From Vulcanisaeta moutnovskia 768-28 (GTDB lineage: Archaea > Thermoproteota > Thermoprotei > Thermoproteales > Thermocladiaceae), in the NCBI RefSeq assembly GCF_000190315.1, contig NC_015151.1, positions 1,612,001 to 1,676,000 of the forward strand: a DNA stretch of 64,000 nt. Reading direction: 5' to 3'. Of this stretch, positions 5,088-25,805 are shown piece by piece (the first letter of the stretch is position 1; every line of letters starts with the position of its first letter). The position numbers were made by a program, and so were the translations under genes. The notes below the pieces were generated by a model, which did not search any database, was not told where the DNA came from, and saw only the letters and a list, made by a program, of their open reading frames with translations.

Positions 5088-6217
5088 GTCCTTAGTTGTA
5101 TTGTCTTTTCGGTTAATAATACGTTGAATTTAATTCCATAAATTTCTACTTGGGACGATCCATGCATACGCCCAATGCTTACGTTCGCCAGTGCCTTTAA
5201 TTTACGCCATTTATCAAGGTTAAGTTTCTCCTCGAGTATGTTGAGGATCTTCTTCAGTTTATTTGGGAGATTGTTAACTATGTGCCTGGCTAGGATTACC
5301 GCGTTGCTGTTCCAAAATATTATTCCAGCTCCCGTGTCCTTTACCGATATTTGATATTTAATTTTCAATTCGTTTGATAGTGGTGTTAGAGCTTTGCTTA
5401 ATTTTTCATAGTTACTTAATCCGGCGCTCATCTTTATGTTCTTTTTCTTTAAGTCAATACTGCCGTCACTCAATATGAGTGTGAGCATATTCCGTGATGA
5501 TATCCTCTTCTCTAGTTCTTGGAATGCTATATCCTTGTTTTTGATTGTTTCTTTGTGAGTTTTGGAGTATATGAACCACGTTATGTTAACGCTCTTTTTT
5601 GTGAATCCAAGGCTTTTTATTGAGACTTCAACTTCGCCAGGGTACAGTAATGACCAGAGTATTAATTGCCATAGTTGTCTTGTCTTCATTGCTGGTCTTC
5701 CCTCGTATATGATGCCGTCGCCGGCTCTAAAGCCGAGTCTTAAATCGTAGAATTCATTATCGCTTAGATTGAGCATGTTAGGTATTATTAGTGTTCTTGT
5801 GCTTAAGCCTCTGAGGTATATCTGGGTAACCACTGAATGGCTTTTGTTTCTTTTTATTTCAATTTCTATTGATGTTAATTTACCACGTATTTTAAGGAAT
5901 AGACTACCGTACCTGCCCTTAACCACGAACACCCTGTTTTTACCGGCGAGTGATTCTTTGAGGGTGCTGTTGACATCATTCTTATAGGCGTGGTTCCATT
6001 TATTCTCGACATCCTTGATCATGCTTATTAATTCCTCGATATTGGTCGTAATTATGTTCTGTAAATTAGTATTGTTATCATTGAAGTTCGTGTTGTTTAT
6101 GAGTTCCCTGAGTTGTTTTATCAATCCCTCTATTGTTTTATTAATGTCATGGTTATTAATGCGTATATAAGCCTCAGTTAATGCGTCGTTTATGAGCTTC
6201 TTAATCTCATAATCCAT
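5054..6217 (-). CDS. PaRep2b-like protein, probably frameshifted near its 3' end
   Basis: This 387-residue protein resembles PaRep2b, a multicopy crenarchaeal family of unknown function whose members often carry frameshifts; the call rests on remembered features. These include a GFRAGDG/EGRPAM-type segment near 175-190 followed by WQLILWSLLYPGEVEV, an LTLILSDGSI segment near 255, and GAGIIFWNSNAVILARHI near 310. The N-terminal 90 residues look coiled-coil and Asn-rich. Base composition is more AT-rich than neighbouring genes, suggesting acquired or relaxed sequence. The start ATG 6217 is preceded by a TATCGCGATA palindrome. The frame is probably broken at an A6 run. Confidence 0.6.
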   Translation of the reverse strand: MDYEIKKLINDALTEAYIRINNHDINKTIEGLIKQLRELINNTNFNDNNTNLQNIITTNIEELISMIKDVENKWNHAYKNDVNSTLKESLAGKNRVFVVKGRYGSLFLKIRGKLTSIEIEIKRNKSHSVVTQIYLRGLSTRTLIIPNMLNLSDNEFYDLRLGFRAGDGIIYEGRPAMKTRQLWQLILWSLLYPGEVEVSIKSLGFTKKSVNITWFIYSKTHKETIKNKDIAFQELEKRISSRNMLTLILSDGSIDLKKKNIKMSAGLSNYEKLSKALTPLSNELKIKYQISVKDTGAGIIFWNSNAVILARHIVNNLPNKLKKILNILEEKLNLDKWRKLKALANVSIGRMHGSSQVEIYGIKFNVLLTEKTIQLRTCCGKNVTSTR

Positions 6218-24080: not shown

Positions 24081-24190
24081 ACTTCTCGATAATGTATTGT
24101 CAAGGGGTTTTTAAATCAAACCTACTTGTTACCTATTTCGTGGCATTGCGCGTAACCTTTTTAAATTAGTAATCGAGTTCGATATCGGTT

Positions 24191-25069
24191 ATGAAAATAG
24201 CAATATCCGTGAGTAATGGTTTCGTATCTGGACCTGGTGAAGGCGATGAAGTTTGGATAGTTGAGGTTGAGGATCATGGCAACTACAAATTAATTGAGCG
24301 ATATGAGAACCCAGCAAGGTATGCACAGCAGATAAGGGGTGTGTTCATGTTGAGGAGTTTGCTTGATCGTGGAATTAACACGGTAATACTCTCCGAAATA
24401 GGACCTCCAGGCTATAGGTGGGCTGCTGAGAAGGGCATTAGGATATATATATTTGAGGGACGTGTCGAGGATGCAATCAAGGCCTTTATTGAGGGTAAAC
24501 TAACTGAGGCGCAGGGGCCAACGCATGGTGAGCATCATGGTCATTACGGGCATCACGGCCATCATAGACATATAGAGGGTTTTGAAACATACGACTTCCT
24601 AAAGCCCTATGTAAGTAATGGTATGGCGATTGCCGACCTAGGTTGCGGGAGTGGTTATTACTGTAACTTCTTTAAGGACTATGCATCAAGGCTTTACTGT
24701 GTTGATGTTGATGAAGCGGCTATTAATGAGGTTCGTAGGAACTTTAGTAACTATGGAAATGTGGTCATACTTAATGAGGACATTACAAGGGCGTCAATAC
24801 CAAGCAATAGTATTGATTTAGCATTTATGTCCAATGTGTTTCATGACATTGAGGATAAGGAGGCAGCCGTTAGGGAAGTGAGTAGGATCTTGAAGCCTGG
24901 CGGTAGGTTATTAATTATTGAGTTTAAGAAGGACGTGGTTTTTGGGCCACCATTTAAGTTAAGTCCTGATGAGGTTGAGCAGTACTTCAGTAGGGAGGGC
25001 TTTGTTAGGGAGGGTTATGCCGAGGTTTCTCCTTATCATTATATGCTCGTCTTTAAAAAGGTAAGGTAG
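24191..25069 (+). CDS. Fusion: NifX/NifB-type cofactor-binding domain, His-rich linker, SAM methyltransferase
   Basis: Residues 1-105 match the dinitrogenase Fe-Mo cofactor domain (MKIAISVSNGF, LLDRGINTVILSEIGPPGY, GIRIYIFEGRVEDAIKAFIEGKL). Residues about 112-130 are a metal-binding linker (HGEHHGHYGHHGHH). Residues 135-292 are a class I methyltransferase (IADLGCGSGYYCNFF; YCVDVDE; NVFHDI; ILKPGGRLLIIEF). The substrate is unknown. The gene is leaderless (TTTTTAAAT box 27 nt before ATG 24191) and stands alone, divergent from psmA. Confidence 0.85.
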   Translation: MKIAISVSNGFVSGPGEGDEVWIVEVEDHGNYKLIERYENPARYAQQIRGVFMLRSLLDRGINTVILSEIGPPGYRWAAEKGIRIYIFEGRVEDAIKAFIEGKLTEAQGPTHGEHHGHYGHHGHHRHIEGFETYDFLKPYVSNGMAIADLGCGSGYYCNFFKDYASRLYCVDVDEAAINEVRRNFSNYGNVVILNEDITRASIPSNSIDLAFMSNVFHDIEDKEAAVREVSRILKPGGRLLIIEFKKDVVFGPPFKLSPDEVEQYFSREGFVREGYAEVSPYHYMLVFKKVR

Positions 25070-25136: not shown

Positions 25137-25805
25137 ATGAAGGGAAGGCCCGATTGGATCATTCGATATAAGGATATCATTAATAAATTGAGGTTTATTC
25201 TCTACGAATTTGAAAATGGGGATCTTAATTTTCAATTATTTGTTAATGAAATAAATAAATCATTAACTAATTGTGGATATGATCCAATAAAGGTTATGGT
25301 ATCTGATATTATGACGGAATTCTTCGGGGCATACGCCGTATACGTACCTCGTAAGCCAGTATCCATAGTGTATGTTTCCACAGAACTTATGAAAAAGCCA
25401 AGGCCCCTACTTGGTAGGGTTTTAGTGCATGAGATATTTCACCACATACTTTATCAAAGGCCTCCATCATTGCTATTTAAATTGGCGCCGAAGAGATTCG
25501 AACCAATTATTCTAATAATCTTACCATTTATAATCCTCGCAATTTTAGCAATACCTCTTTACTCTACACTGTATAACTTCTTATCTTATATTGTTGCTTC
25601 ATCATCTATAACCATGACATTATTAACGGCAATCCTGATAAGGGCCTTAAATGAGCATGAATTAATGGCTACAACATTCGTGGTTTACCTAGTGACTGGT
25701 GAATGGGTTAAGAACTGGACTTATTACCATGATGAAAACGCATTAATGAACCTCAGGTGGGATGAAGCCGTTAGGCCTAGGGAGGTTATTGTTATGCAAA
25801 GGTAA
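25137..25805 (+). CDS. Membrane-associated zinc metalloprotease-like protein
   Basis: VLVHEIFHHILYQRPP carries the HExxH zinc motif (near residue 100). Two hydrophobic spans follow (about 120-142 and 146-168), and then NEHELMATTFVVYL, whose Glu could be the third ligand, as in M48-type gluzincins. The 222-residue protein is shorter than HtpX and I cannot place it in a named subfamily. It starts 8 nt after a probable transcription start and is followed by the phosphatase gene with an SD-linked start, suggesting an operon. Confidence 0.7.
   Translation: MKGRPDWIIRYKDIINKLRFILYEFENGDLNFQLFVNEINKSLTNCGYDPIKVMVSDIMTEFFGAYAVYVPRKPVSIVYVSTELMKKPRPLLGRVLVHEIFHHILYQRPPSLLFKLAPKRFEPIILIILPFIILAILAIPLYSTLYNFLSYIVASSSITMTLLTAILIRALNEHELMATTFVVYLVTGEWVKNWTYYHDENALMNLRWDEAVRPREVIVMQR

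Follow-up and report, generated by a model that had tools for sequence, protein, structure and literature searches.

What does a NifX-like domain do when it is joined, within one polypeptide, to a methyltransferase dependent on S-adenosylmethionine (SAM), in an archaeon whose genome carries no nitrogenase genes? The question is raised by a gene of Vulcanisaeta moutnovskia 768-28 that lies in the window, by which we mean the whole stretch of DNA analysed (64,000 nucleotides of contig NC_015151.1, positions 1,612,001 to 1,676,000). A first-pass annotation had described a NifX-type domain, a His-rich metal linker and a SAM methyltransferase in a single protein, and this description is borne out by an intact reading frame and by two Pfam matches above their cut-offs. 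The frame runs uninterrupted on the forward strand from the ATG at 24191 to the stop codon at 25067-25069 and encodes 292 amino acids (Table 1). Residues 16-100 match PF02579 (E 4.6e-10; 40.1 bits, cut-off 26.3) and residues 149-242 match Methyltransf_11 (E 8.3e-22; 78.1 bits, cut-off 21.2), and motif I is present, which makes the protein a member of both PF02579 and the class I SAM methyltransferases. Neither Radical_SAM nor a P-loop NTPase gave a Pfam match in the fusion protein, and the former result sets it apart from NifB. The reported lack of nitrogenase genes extends to the entire genome, in which PF00148 has no match in a single contig of 2.30 Mb (99.97% complete); four of 14 control genomes were positive. 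The protein is thus not placed among the NifX/NifB carriers of nitrogenase.

Table 1. Positions of the fusion gene and its features in the window.
Feature	Position	Strand	Basis
Whole fusion gene, 292 aa and stop	24191..25069	+	Single frame kept in 13 other genomes
NifX-like (PF02579) domain, residues 1-109, GPGEG at 14-18	24191..24517	+	Pfam; Ta1041/2re2 profile and fold match
PTH motif and His-rich stretch, residues 110-128	24518..24574	+	9 His in 17 residues; tail in free-standing relatives; low model confidence
Class I SAM methyltransferase domain, residues 130-292	24578..25066	+	Pfam; 3i9f E 1.9e-57, Z 22.5; 3dh0 Z 23.2
SAM-binding motif I GCGSG, residues 151-155	24641..24655	+	Fusion alignment and methyltransferase alignment
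Cys158	24662..24664	+	Invariant in 14 fusions; at least 90% in 19-row methyltransferase alignment
Cys170 in YC(V/I)D	24698..24700	+	Invariant in 14-fusion and 19-row methyltransferase alignments
FGPP, residues 251-254	24941..24952	+	GPP invariant in 19-row methyltransferase alignment
Possible archaeal TATA element CCTTTTTAAATTAG, ~28 bp 5′ of ATG	24156..24169	+	By eye from sequence

The putative TATA element suggests a leaderless, single-gene transcript; a scan for sigma-70 promoters gave nothing useful. AlphaFold2 models of the 14 fusions described below (mean pLDDT 86.9, pTM 0.57) contain two confident domains, with pLDDT below 50 at residues 113-131. As modelled, the protein would be a pair of firm domains joined by a loose tether, which is probably disordered, and neither a docking of the domains nor a fixed arrangement of one against the other is predicted with confidence. 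The only Cys residues of the window protein are 152, 158 and 170, all within or after motif I, and none of the 14 fusions has a Cys in its NifX half. Because of this, an Fe-S cluster ligated by Cys is unlikely in the NifX half, where a His site or a non-covalently held cluster is possible.

The stretch between the domains, PTHGEHHGHYGHHGHHRH, contains nine His residues in a span of 17. The next-richest of 73 window reading frames of at least 100 amino acids reaches four in the same span, and shuffling the fusion protein 20000 times never gave more than six. The stretch had been interpreted as a linker. It does lie between the domains, but it is mostly a tail at the C terminus of the NifX half (hereafter the carrier), because free-standing NifX relatives end likewise in PTH and additional His; PTHGEHHGHGGHHIHH, PTHEHGHDEHELESM and PTHEEHHHHHHYY are examples of such tails. 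PTH is invariant in all 18 aligned carrier rows, the window sequence among them, and each row has at least one further His, the number varying; 11 of the 18 are unlinked proteins. With GPGE at residues 14-17 and PTH followed by His, the window sequence belongs to a Ta1041-type group of His-tailed NifX proteins, a group that is defined here by the carrier alignment in which this sequence is itself included. Among the fusions, PTH is present in 13 of 14, and the remaining one (L004), which is outside the 18-row alignment, has PAP. The free methyltransferases vary at the other side of the joint, some beginning with His (MRRMHHHLHHG in Caldivirga) and others not. Only one other PF02579 protein was found in the window genome, without a His tail, and a search of NCBIfam with three carrier sequences matched no family.

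The tract need not have anything to do with metal. It could serve acid-loving hosts as a spacer that is flexible and responds to pH, with Cys158 and Cys170 forming a stabilising disulfide and the NifX domain binding a small organic ligand. The cytosolic pH of acidophiles is close to that at which His titrates, disulfides are frequent in cytosolic proteins of crenarchaea, and the Cys pair is missing from the Thermoplasma-type relatives (L214-L217). The conserved PTH and further His of the 18 aligned carriers argue against such a spacer, however, since the 11 unlinked proteins would need none, and we consider this explanation improbable.

The two halves are not separate genes throughout the relatives of this organism. 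In 13 other genomes the fusion is intact and the join region is in frame, at 47-86% identity, so that the arrangement and its linker are not peculiar to the window. Twelve Vulcanisaeta genomes were compared: the fusion is intact in eight, including that of the window, frame-broken in three, and was not found in one genome that is 54% complete. With all six Thermoproteus genomes, in which it is also intact, the total is 14 genomes in two genera. No additional fusion was found at E values up to 1e-12 in a scan of the class (81 genomes) or of the phylum (398 Thermoproteota genomes taken from a larger set). A scan of named genomes gave 10 full-length matches among the best 80 of 171 relatives, all from Vulcanisaeta or Thermoproteus; it used methyltransferase motifs only and was therefore blind to free carriers. 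Among the 20 of 30 records listed in a plasmid search, matches were to the methyltransferase part only, at less than 60% identity.

The three broken copies, in Vulcanisaeta drafts G003, G004 and G008, were considered as real fissions or programmed frameshifts, and both were rejected: three, three and five of eight neighbour genes, respectively, are likewise spread over several frames. In two of these drafts a base is missing at the same short run of C, which we take as a shared sequencing weakness. A fourth draft (G002) has five of eight neighbour genes spread over frames and an intact fusion nonetheless, and in the other five Vulcanisaeta loci compared every gene found is in one frame. More generally, Vulcanisaeta drafts of the JCM series (L050, L058, L059 and L060) carry many frame breaks in housekeeping genes, and apparent gene splits in them are therefore unreliable.

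Outside these two genera the halves occur as separate genes. This is the case in Caldivirga and genus g4, both of the family of Vulcanisaeta, and in family f32, which is probably Sulfolobaceae, a family with laboratory strains; we assign it so from the likeness of its methyltransferases to 3i9f, a Sulfolobus structure. The separate genes are not neighbours within the loci read, which extend a few kilobases to each side. Profiles of the two halves were run against these 398 Thermoproteota genomes, with limits of 100 bits for the carrier and 150 bits for the methyltransferase that were chosen after the scores had been seen. Intact carriers score at least 147 bits, a broken copy 106 and a degraded copy 104, and the next genomes 85 (G383) and 67 (G374); for the best methyltransferase of each genome the corresponding values are at least 191 for intact genes, 152 for a broken copy and 135 for the next genome.

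At these limits the carrier is present in 38 genomes, the methyltransferase in 42 and both in 37. A strong methyltransferase match thus accompanies the carrier in 37 of 38 genomes, compared with five of the 360 that have no carrier, and when fusions are excluded the proportion among carrier genomes is still 20 of 21. The sole carrier genome without a strong methyltransferase match is 67% complete. Fisher tests gave p values of 1.6e-45 for genomes, 1.2e-12 for genera and 2.5e-10 for genera without fusions; these ignore shared ancestry and overstate the association, because it rests on about three independent blocks (f1, Thermoproteus or g7, and f32). Within families the halves move together, as g3, g5 and g8 have no strong match to either; g5 has weak matches of PF02579 type. 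Of the 19 f32 genomes with a methyltransferase, five have no carrier. In a sixth f32 genome, G287, the carrier match (C1:1827870-1828220) contains eight stop codons and the methyltransferase is retained, and this carrier seems to be decaying.

Beyond the phylum, 20 of 243 genomes of a group that is presumably Thermoplasmatota (the phylum around G409) have a carrier of at least 99 bits, and one of these carriers is letter-for-letter Ta1041 of structure 2re2. Counted from the printed sequences, PTH, ATH or STH occupies the tail position in 15 of the 20 and is absent from five. The four best methyltransferase scores of this phylum (135-144 bits) all fall within the 20 carrier genomes; the other 16 have no methyltransferase of at least 130 bits and possess weaker relatives only. 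Among the first 20 listed of 219 carrier-free genomes, with four genomes of weaker carrier matches left out of the comparison, the best methyltransferase scores 96 bits and none reaches 100. The Nanoarchaeota present the reverse arrangement, with the methyltransferase in all three genomes examined and the carrier found in none of the three. These genomes, of 0.4-0.6 Mb, carry the methyltransferase half at loci L082, L083 and L084 (match near 6001 in each).

In the methyltransferase tree, the Thermoproteales rows, fused and split, form one group (100/99) with the Nanoarchaeota rows inside it, and two further Caldivirga paralogues fall outside. The two Nanoarchaeota rows, from Nanopusillus and Nanobsidianus, nest inside Caldivirga, which suggests that the methyltransferase was transferred from a Caldivirga-like archaeon to these episymbionts and retained in very small genomes. 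All 14 fusions are on one side of this tree (92/94, not starred), next to the rows of Caldivirga, g4 and Nanoarchaeota. The carrier tree also holds the Thermoproteales rows together, whether fused or split (95/88), but it groups Thermoproteus with Caldivirga and g4 (97/87, starred); its root is unsure because four Thermoplasmatota-type rows fall among f32, and an AU test on it did not reject a single fusion clade (p 0.06). The trees disagree, and the arrangement may have arisen by one fusion with later fission or by two fusions, between which we make no ranking.

Gene neighbourhoods were read for further clues. In Vulcanisaeta the setting is conserved and of housekeeping character, comprising a divergent proteasome alpha gene, a TrmI-like tRNA methyltransferase, a HAD-type hydrolase (by our reading) and a radical SAM protein. 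We rejected these as operon partners, since family clustering finds none of them accompanying the gene into Thermoproteus or into the split-gene loci. On the same strand, 67 bp downstream of the fusion (25137-25805), lies a gene for a 222-amino-acid protein with the sequence HEIFHH, which resembles the HExxH of zinc peptidases, and with hydrophobic stretches. The nine other Vulcanisaeta loci that were compared likewise have it downstream of the fusion. The copies from the window and L056 have no Pfam match, and the window copy has none in NCBIfam or PADLOC. None of the neighbour proteins scanned was recognisable as the product of an arsenic gene. In four of nine f32 loci read (L154, L156, L166 and L169; Pfam on L154 only), the carrier gene overlaps, at its start, a regulator gene of PadR type.

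Two other contexts bring to mind cofactor biosynthesis, with a tetrapyrrole, corrinoid or pterin as methyl acceptor and the carrier supplying metal or an intermediate. In g4, the free His-tailed carrier precedes genes for a PF13241 protein (precorrin-2-dehydrogenase-like) and glutamyl-tRNA reductase in all three loci (L041, L043 and L045; Pfam on L041 only). In five of six Thermoproteus genomes (L051, L052, L053, L079 and L081; Pfam on one member) the fusion is immediately preceded, on its own strand, by a PF00809 gene (dihydropteroate-synthase-like). These two contexts disagree with each other, however, and the PF00809 gene was rejected as a partner: of 389 genomes, 141 have it; they include g5 and g8, genera with no strong match to either half, and none of the 141 is from f32. 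The methyltransferase domain is also below the cut-off of the CbiT model and, at 34.5 bits against 180, of the CpaM model. Contexts that differ between genera and are mutually inconsistent carry little weight, and a role in cofactor biosynthesis seems to us a long shot.

Taken with the distribution of the two halves, the architecture leads us to prefer, with a probability of roughly 0.4, an explanation in which a carrier and His-tail module with a putative metal role is tethered to, and works with, the SAM methyltransferase. A functional link between carrier and methyltransferase is well supported, because the fusion occurs in two genera and the halves co-occur strongly elsewhere. Also in favour of this explanation are PTH in every aligned carrier, the lack of a His tail on the other PF02579 protein of this genome and the cohesion of the Thermoproteales rows in each tree. 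The metal role is moderately plausible, with IssA and MrpORP, described below, as precedents for the carrier fold. A His-tailed NifX-type carrier of the Ta1041 group would be permanently tethered to a small class I SAM-dependent methyltransferase of the 3i9f group; its tail and NifX fold would bind a metal ion or a small metal-sulphur species, and it would present either the metal or an acceptor with metal bound to the methyltransferase. Flexibility of the linker would allow docking of the carrier at the active site, followed by exchange of its load. As methyl acceptor we would guess at a small thiol, at a ligand bound to metal or at the precursor of a cofactor, and not at DNA or protein.

Several observations count against this tethered-carrier explanation, namely the Cys-free NifX half, GPGEG in place of the FGRA of MTH1175, the occurrence of the halves apart, the variable neighbours, the pTM of 0.57, the conflict between trees, the small number of independent blocks behind the co-occurrence and the PAP of L004. 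Metal-dependent methylation, or methylation with a metallocofactor or metalloid as its target, was the proposal of the first-pass annotation. The architecture that it described and a functional coupling of the halves are supported. For the chemistry, the NifX half lacks Cys, neither the ArsM models nor their Cys pattern is matched and each half also occurs without the other, and we regard metal-dependent or metallocofactor methylation as plausible but unproven. In its broadest form the idea would be that His-tailed NifX proteins and 3i9f-type methyltransferases together make up a system of thermoacidophilic archaea, not described before, for methylation with handling of metal. Metal or metal-sulphur held by the carrier would be delivered to the methyl acceptor or form part of it, and in Vulcanisaeta and Thermoproteus the two would have been welded into one protein. 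We consider that extension unlikely. Were the metal link to hold, methylation and metal handling would be coupled by a new route.

The metalloid part of the proposal invites comparison with ArsM, which is also a class I SAM methyltransferase and gives a weak profile match. Arsenite, selenite or tellurite might be methylated here, the metalloid being bound in part by the His tract, and an unrelated enzyme would then do ArsM-like work. The hosts of the fusion inhabit hot springs. The thermophilic enzyme TtArsM of Thermus is reported to have one Cys and two His proposed at its site, with a conserved Cys77 before motif I (PMC8649762). The match of the methyltransferase domain to the ArsM model PRK11873 reaches only 39.5 bits against a cut-off of 263, however, and all three Cys residues lie in or after motif I, not before it as Cys77 does. 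Together with the failure to recognise an arsenic gene among the scanned neighbours, these results make metalloid detoxification a poor prospect. Other methyltransferase models fared similarly: the DVU_1556 family scored 45 bits against a cut-off of 155, and UbiE and BioC were far below theirs. The PADLOC model for mad2 of the MADS system gave E 2.4e-22 but covered 173 of 492 positions, in a library without a cut-off for it, and the scanned neighbours are housekeeping genes, so we do not assign the protein to that system. Matches of this model to the methyltransferase domain are a possible source of false defence-system calls.

Two PF02579-type proteins with described metal chemistry resemble the carrier in part. 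MrpORP of Desulfovibrio is, like the fusion, a two-domain protein, and its Di-Nase domain is reported to bind an Fe-S cluster, with Fe-S bound by both of the domains (PMC6345978). Its partner domain is instead a P-loop NTPase, and the CXHFGHCE and CDH motifs given there need Cys; the fusion protein has no NTPase match and its NifX half no Cys, which excludes it from the MrpORP type as so described. In IssA of Pyrococcus furiosus, the PF02579/IPR003731 domain binds Fe and S, and it is followed, as here, by an unstructured tail, one proposed to bind or wrap thioferrate; some members of the clade have a short tail or none (PMC5524996). By analogy with this storage of thioferrate on the same fold, the NifX domain and His tail might store or buffer metal or iron sulphide, the methyltransferase having been joined to them through a common stress or nutrient programme with no chemical coupling. 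Carriers without a close methyltransferase in most carrier genomes of the Thermoplasmatota type are in keeping with this, as is the PadR-type gene that overlaps the carrier start in some f32 loci. The tail of IssA is nonetheless of another kind in the same report, some 70 residues that are cationic and rich in Gly and aromatic residues, and its giant thioferrate particles involve no methyltransferase; here the tail has about 18 residues and is rich in His, with no Trp in the window protein and one Trp in some Thermoproteus copies. Storage would also leave both the fusion and the strong co-occurrence unexplained, and we hold it to be doubtful.

The first-pass annotation regarded the combination of domains as not previously described, and our literature searches agree as far as they reach, with no description of a NifX-like/methyltransferase fusion met among the papers listed; nor was a functional study of Ta1041/2re2 or 3i9f met there. 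It is these two solved structures that the tethered halves most resemble. Within PF02579, MTH1175 has FGRA at the position where the fusion carrier has GPGEG. Ta1041 (Thermoplasma acidophilum, PDB 2re2) shares the GPGE motif, ends in PTHDHGHHH and matches the carrier half with 50% identity over the Foldseek alignment, a profile E of 1.2e-44 and a fold Z of 20.8; unlike the fusion, this NifX-like protein from structural genomics is free-standing, with no methyltransferase attached. The nearest solved methyltransferase is 3i9f, a putative type 11 methyltransferase from Sulfolobus solfataricus, which has GCG, Cys and GPP motifs in common with the second half and differs in being a free-standing chain of 170 amino acids; the fold match to 3dh0 is comparable (Table 1). 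The two structures, for which no function was met, represent groups of proteins, known mainly through structural genomics, that co-occur and that are fused in two genera. For organisms that lack nitrogenase, this offers a concrete and testable hypothesis on what the PF02579 proteins are partnered with.
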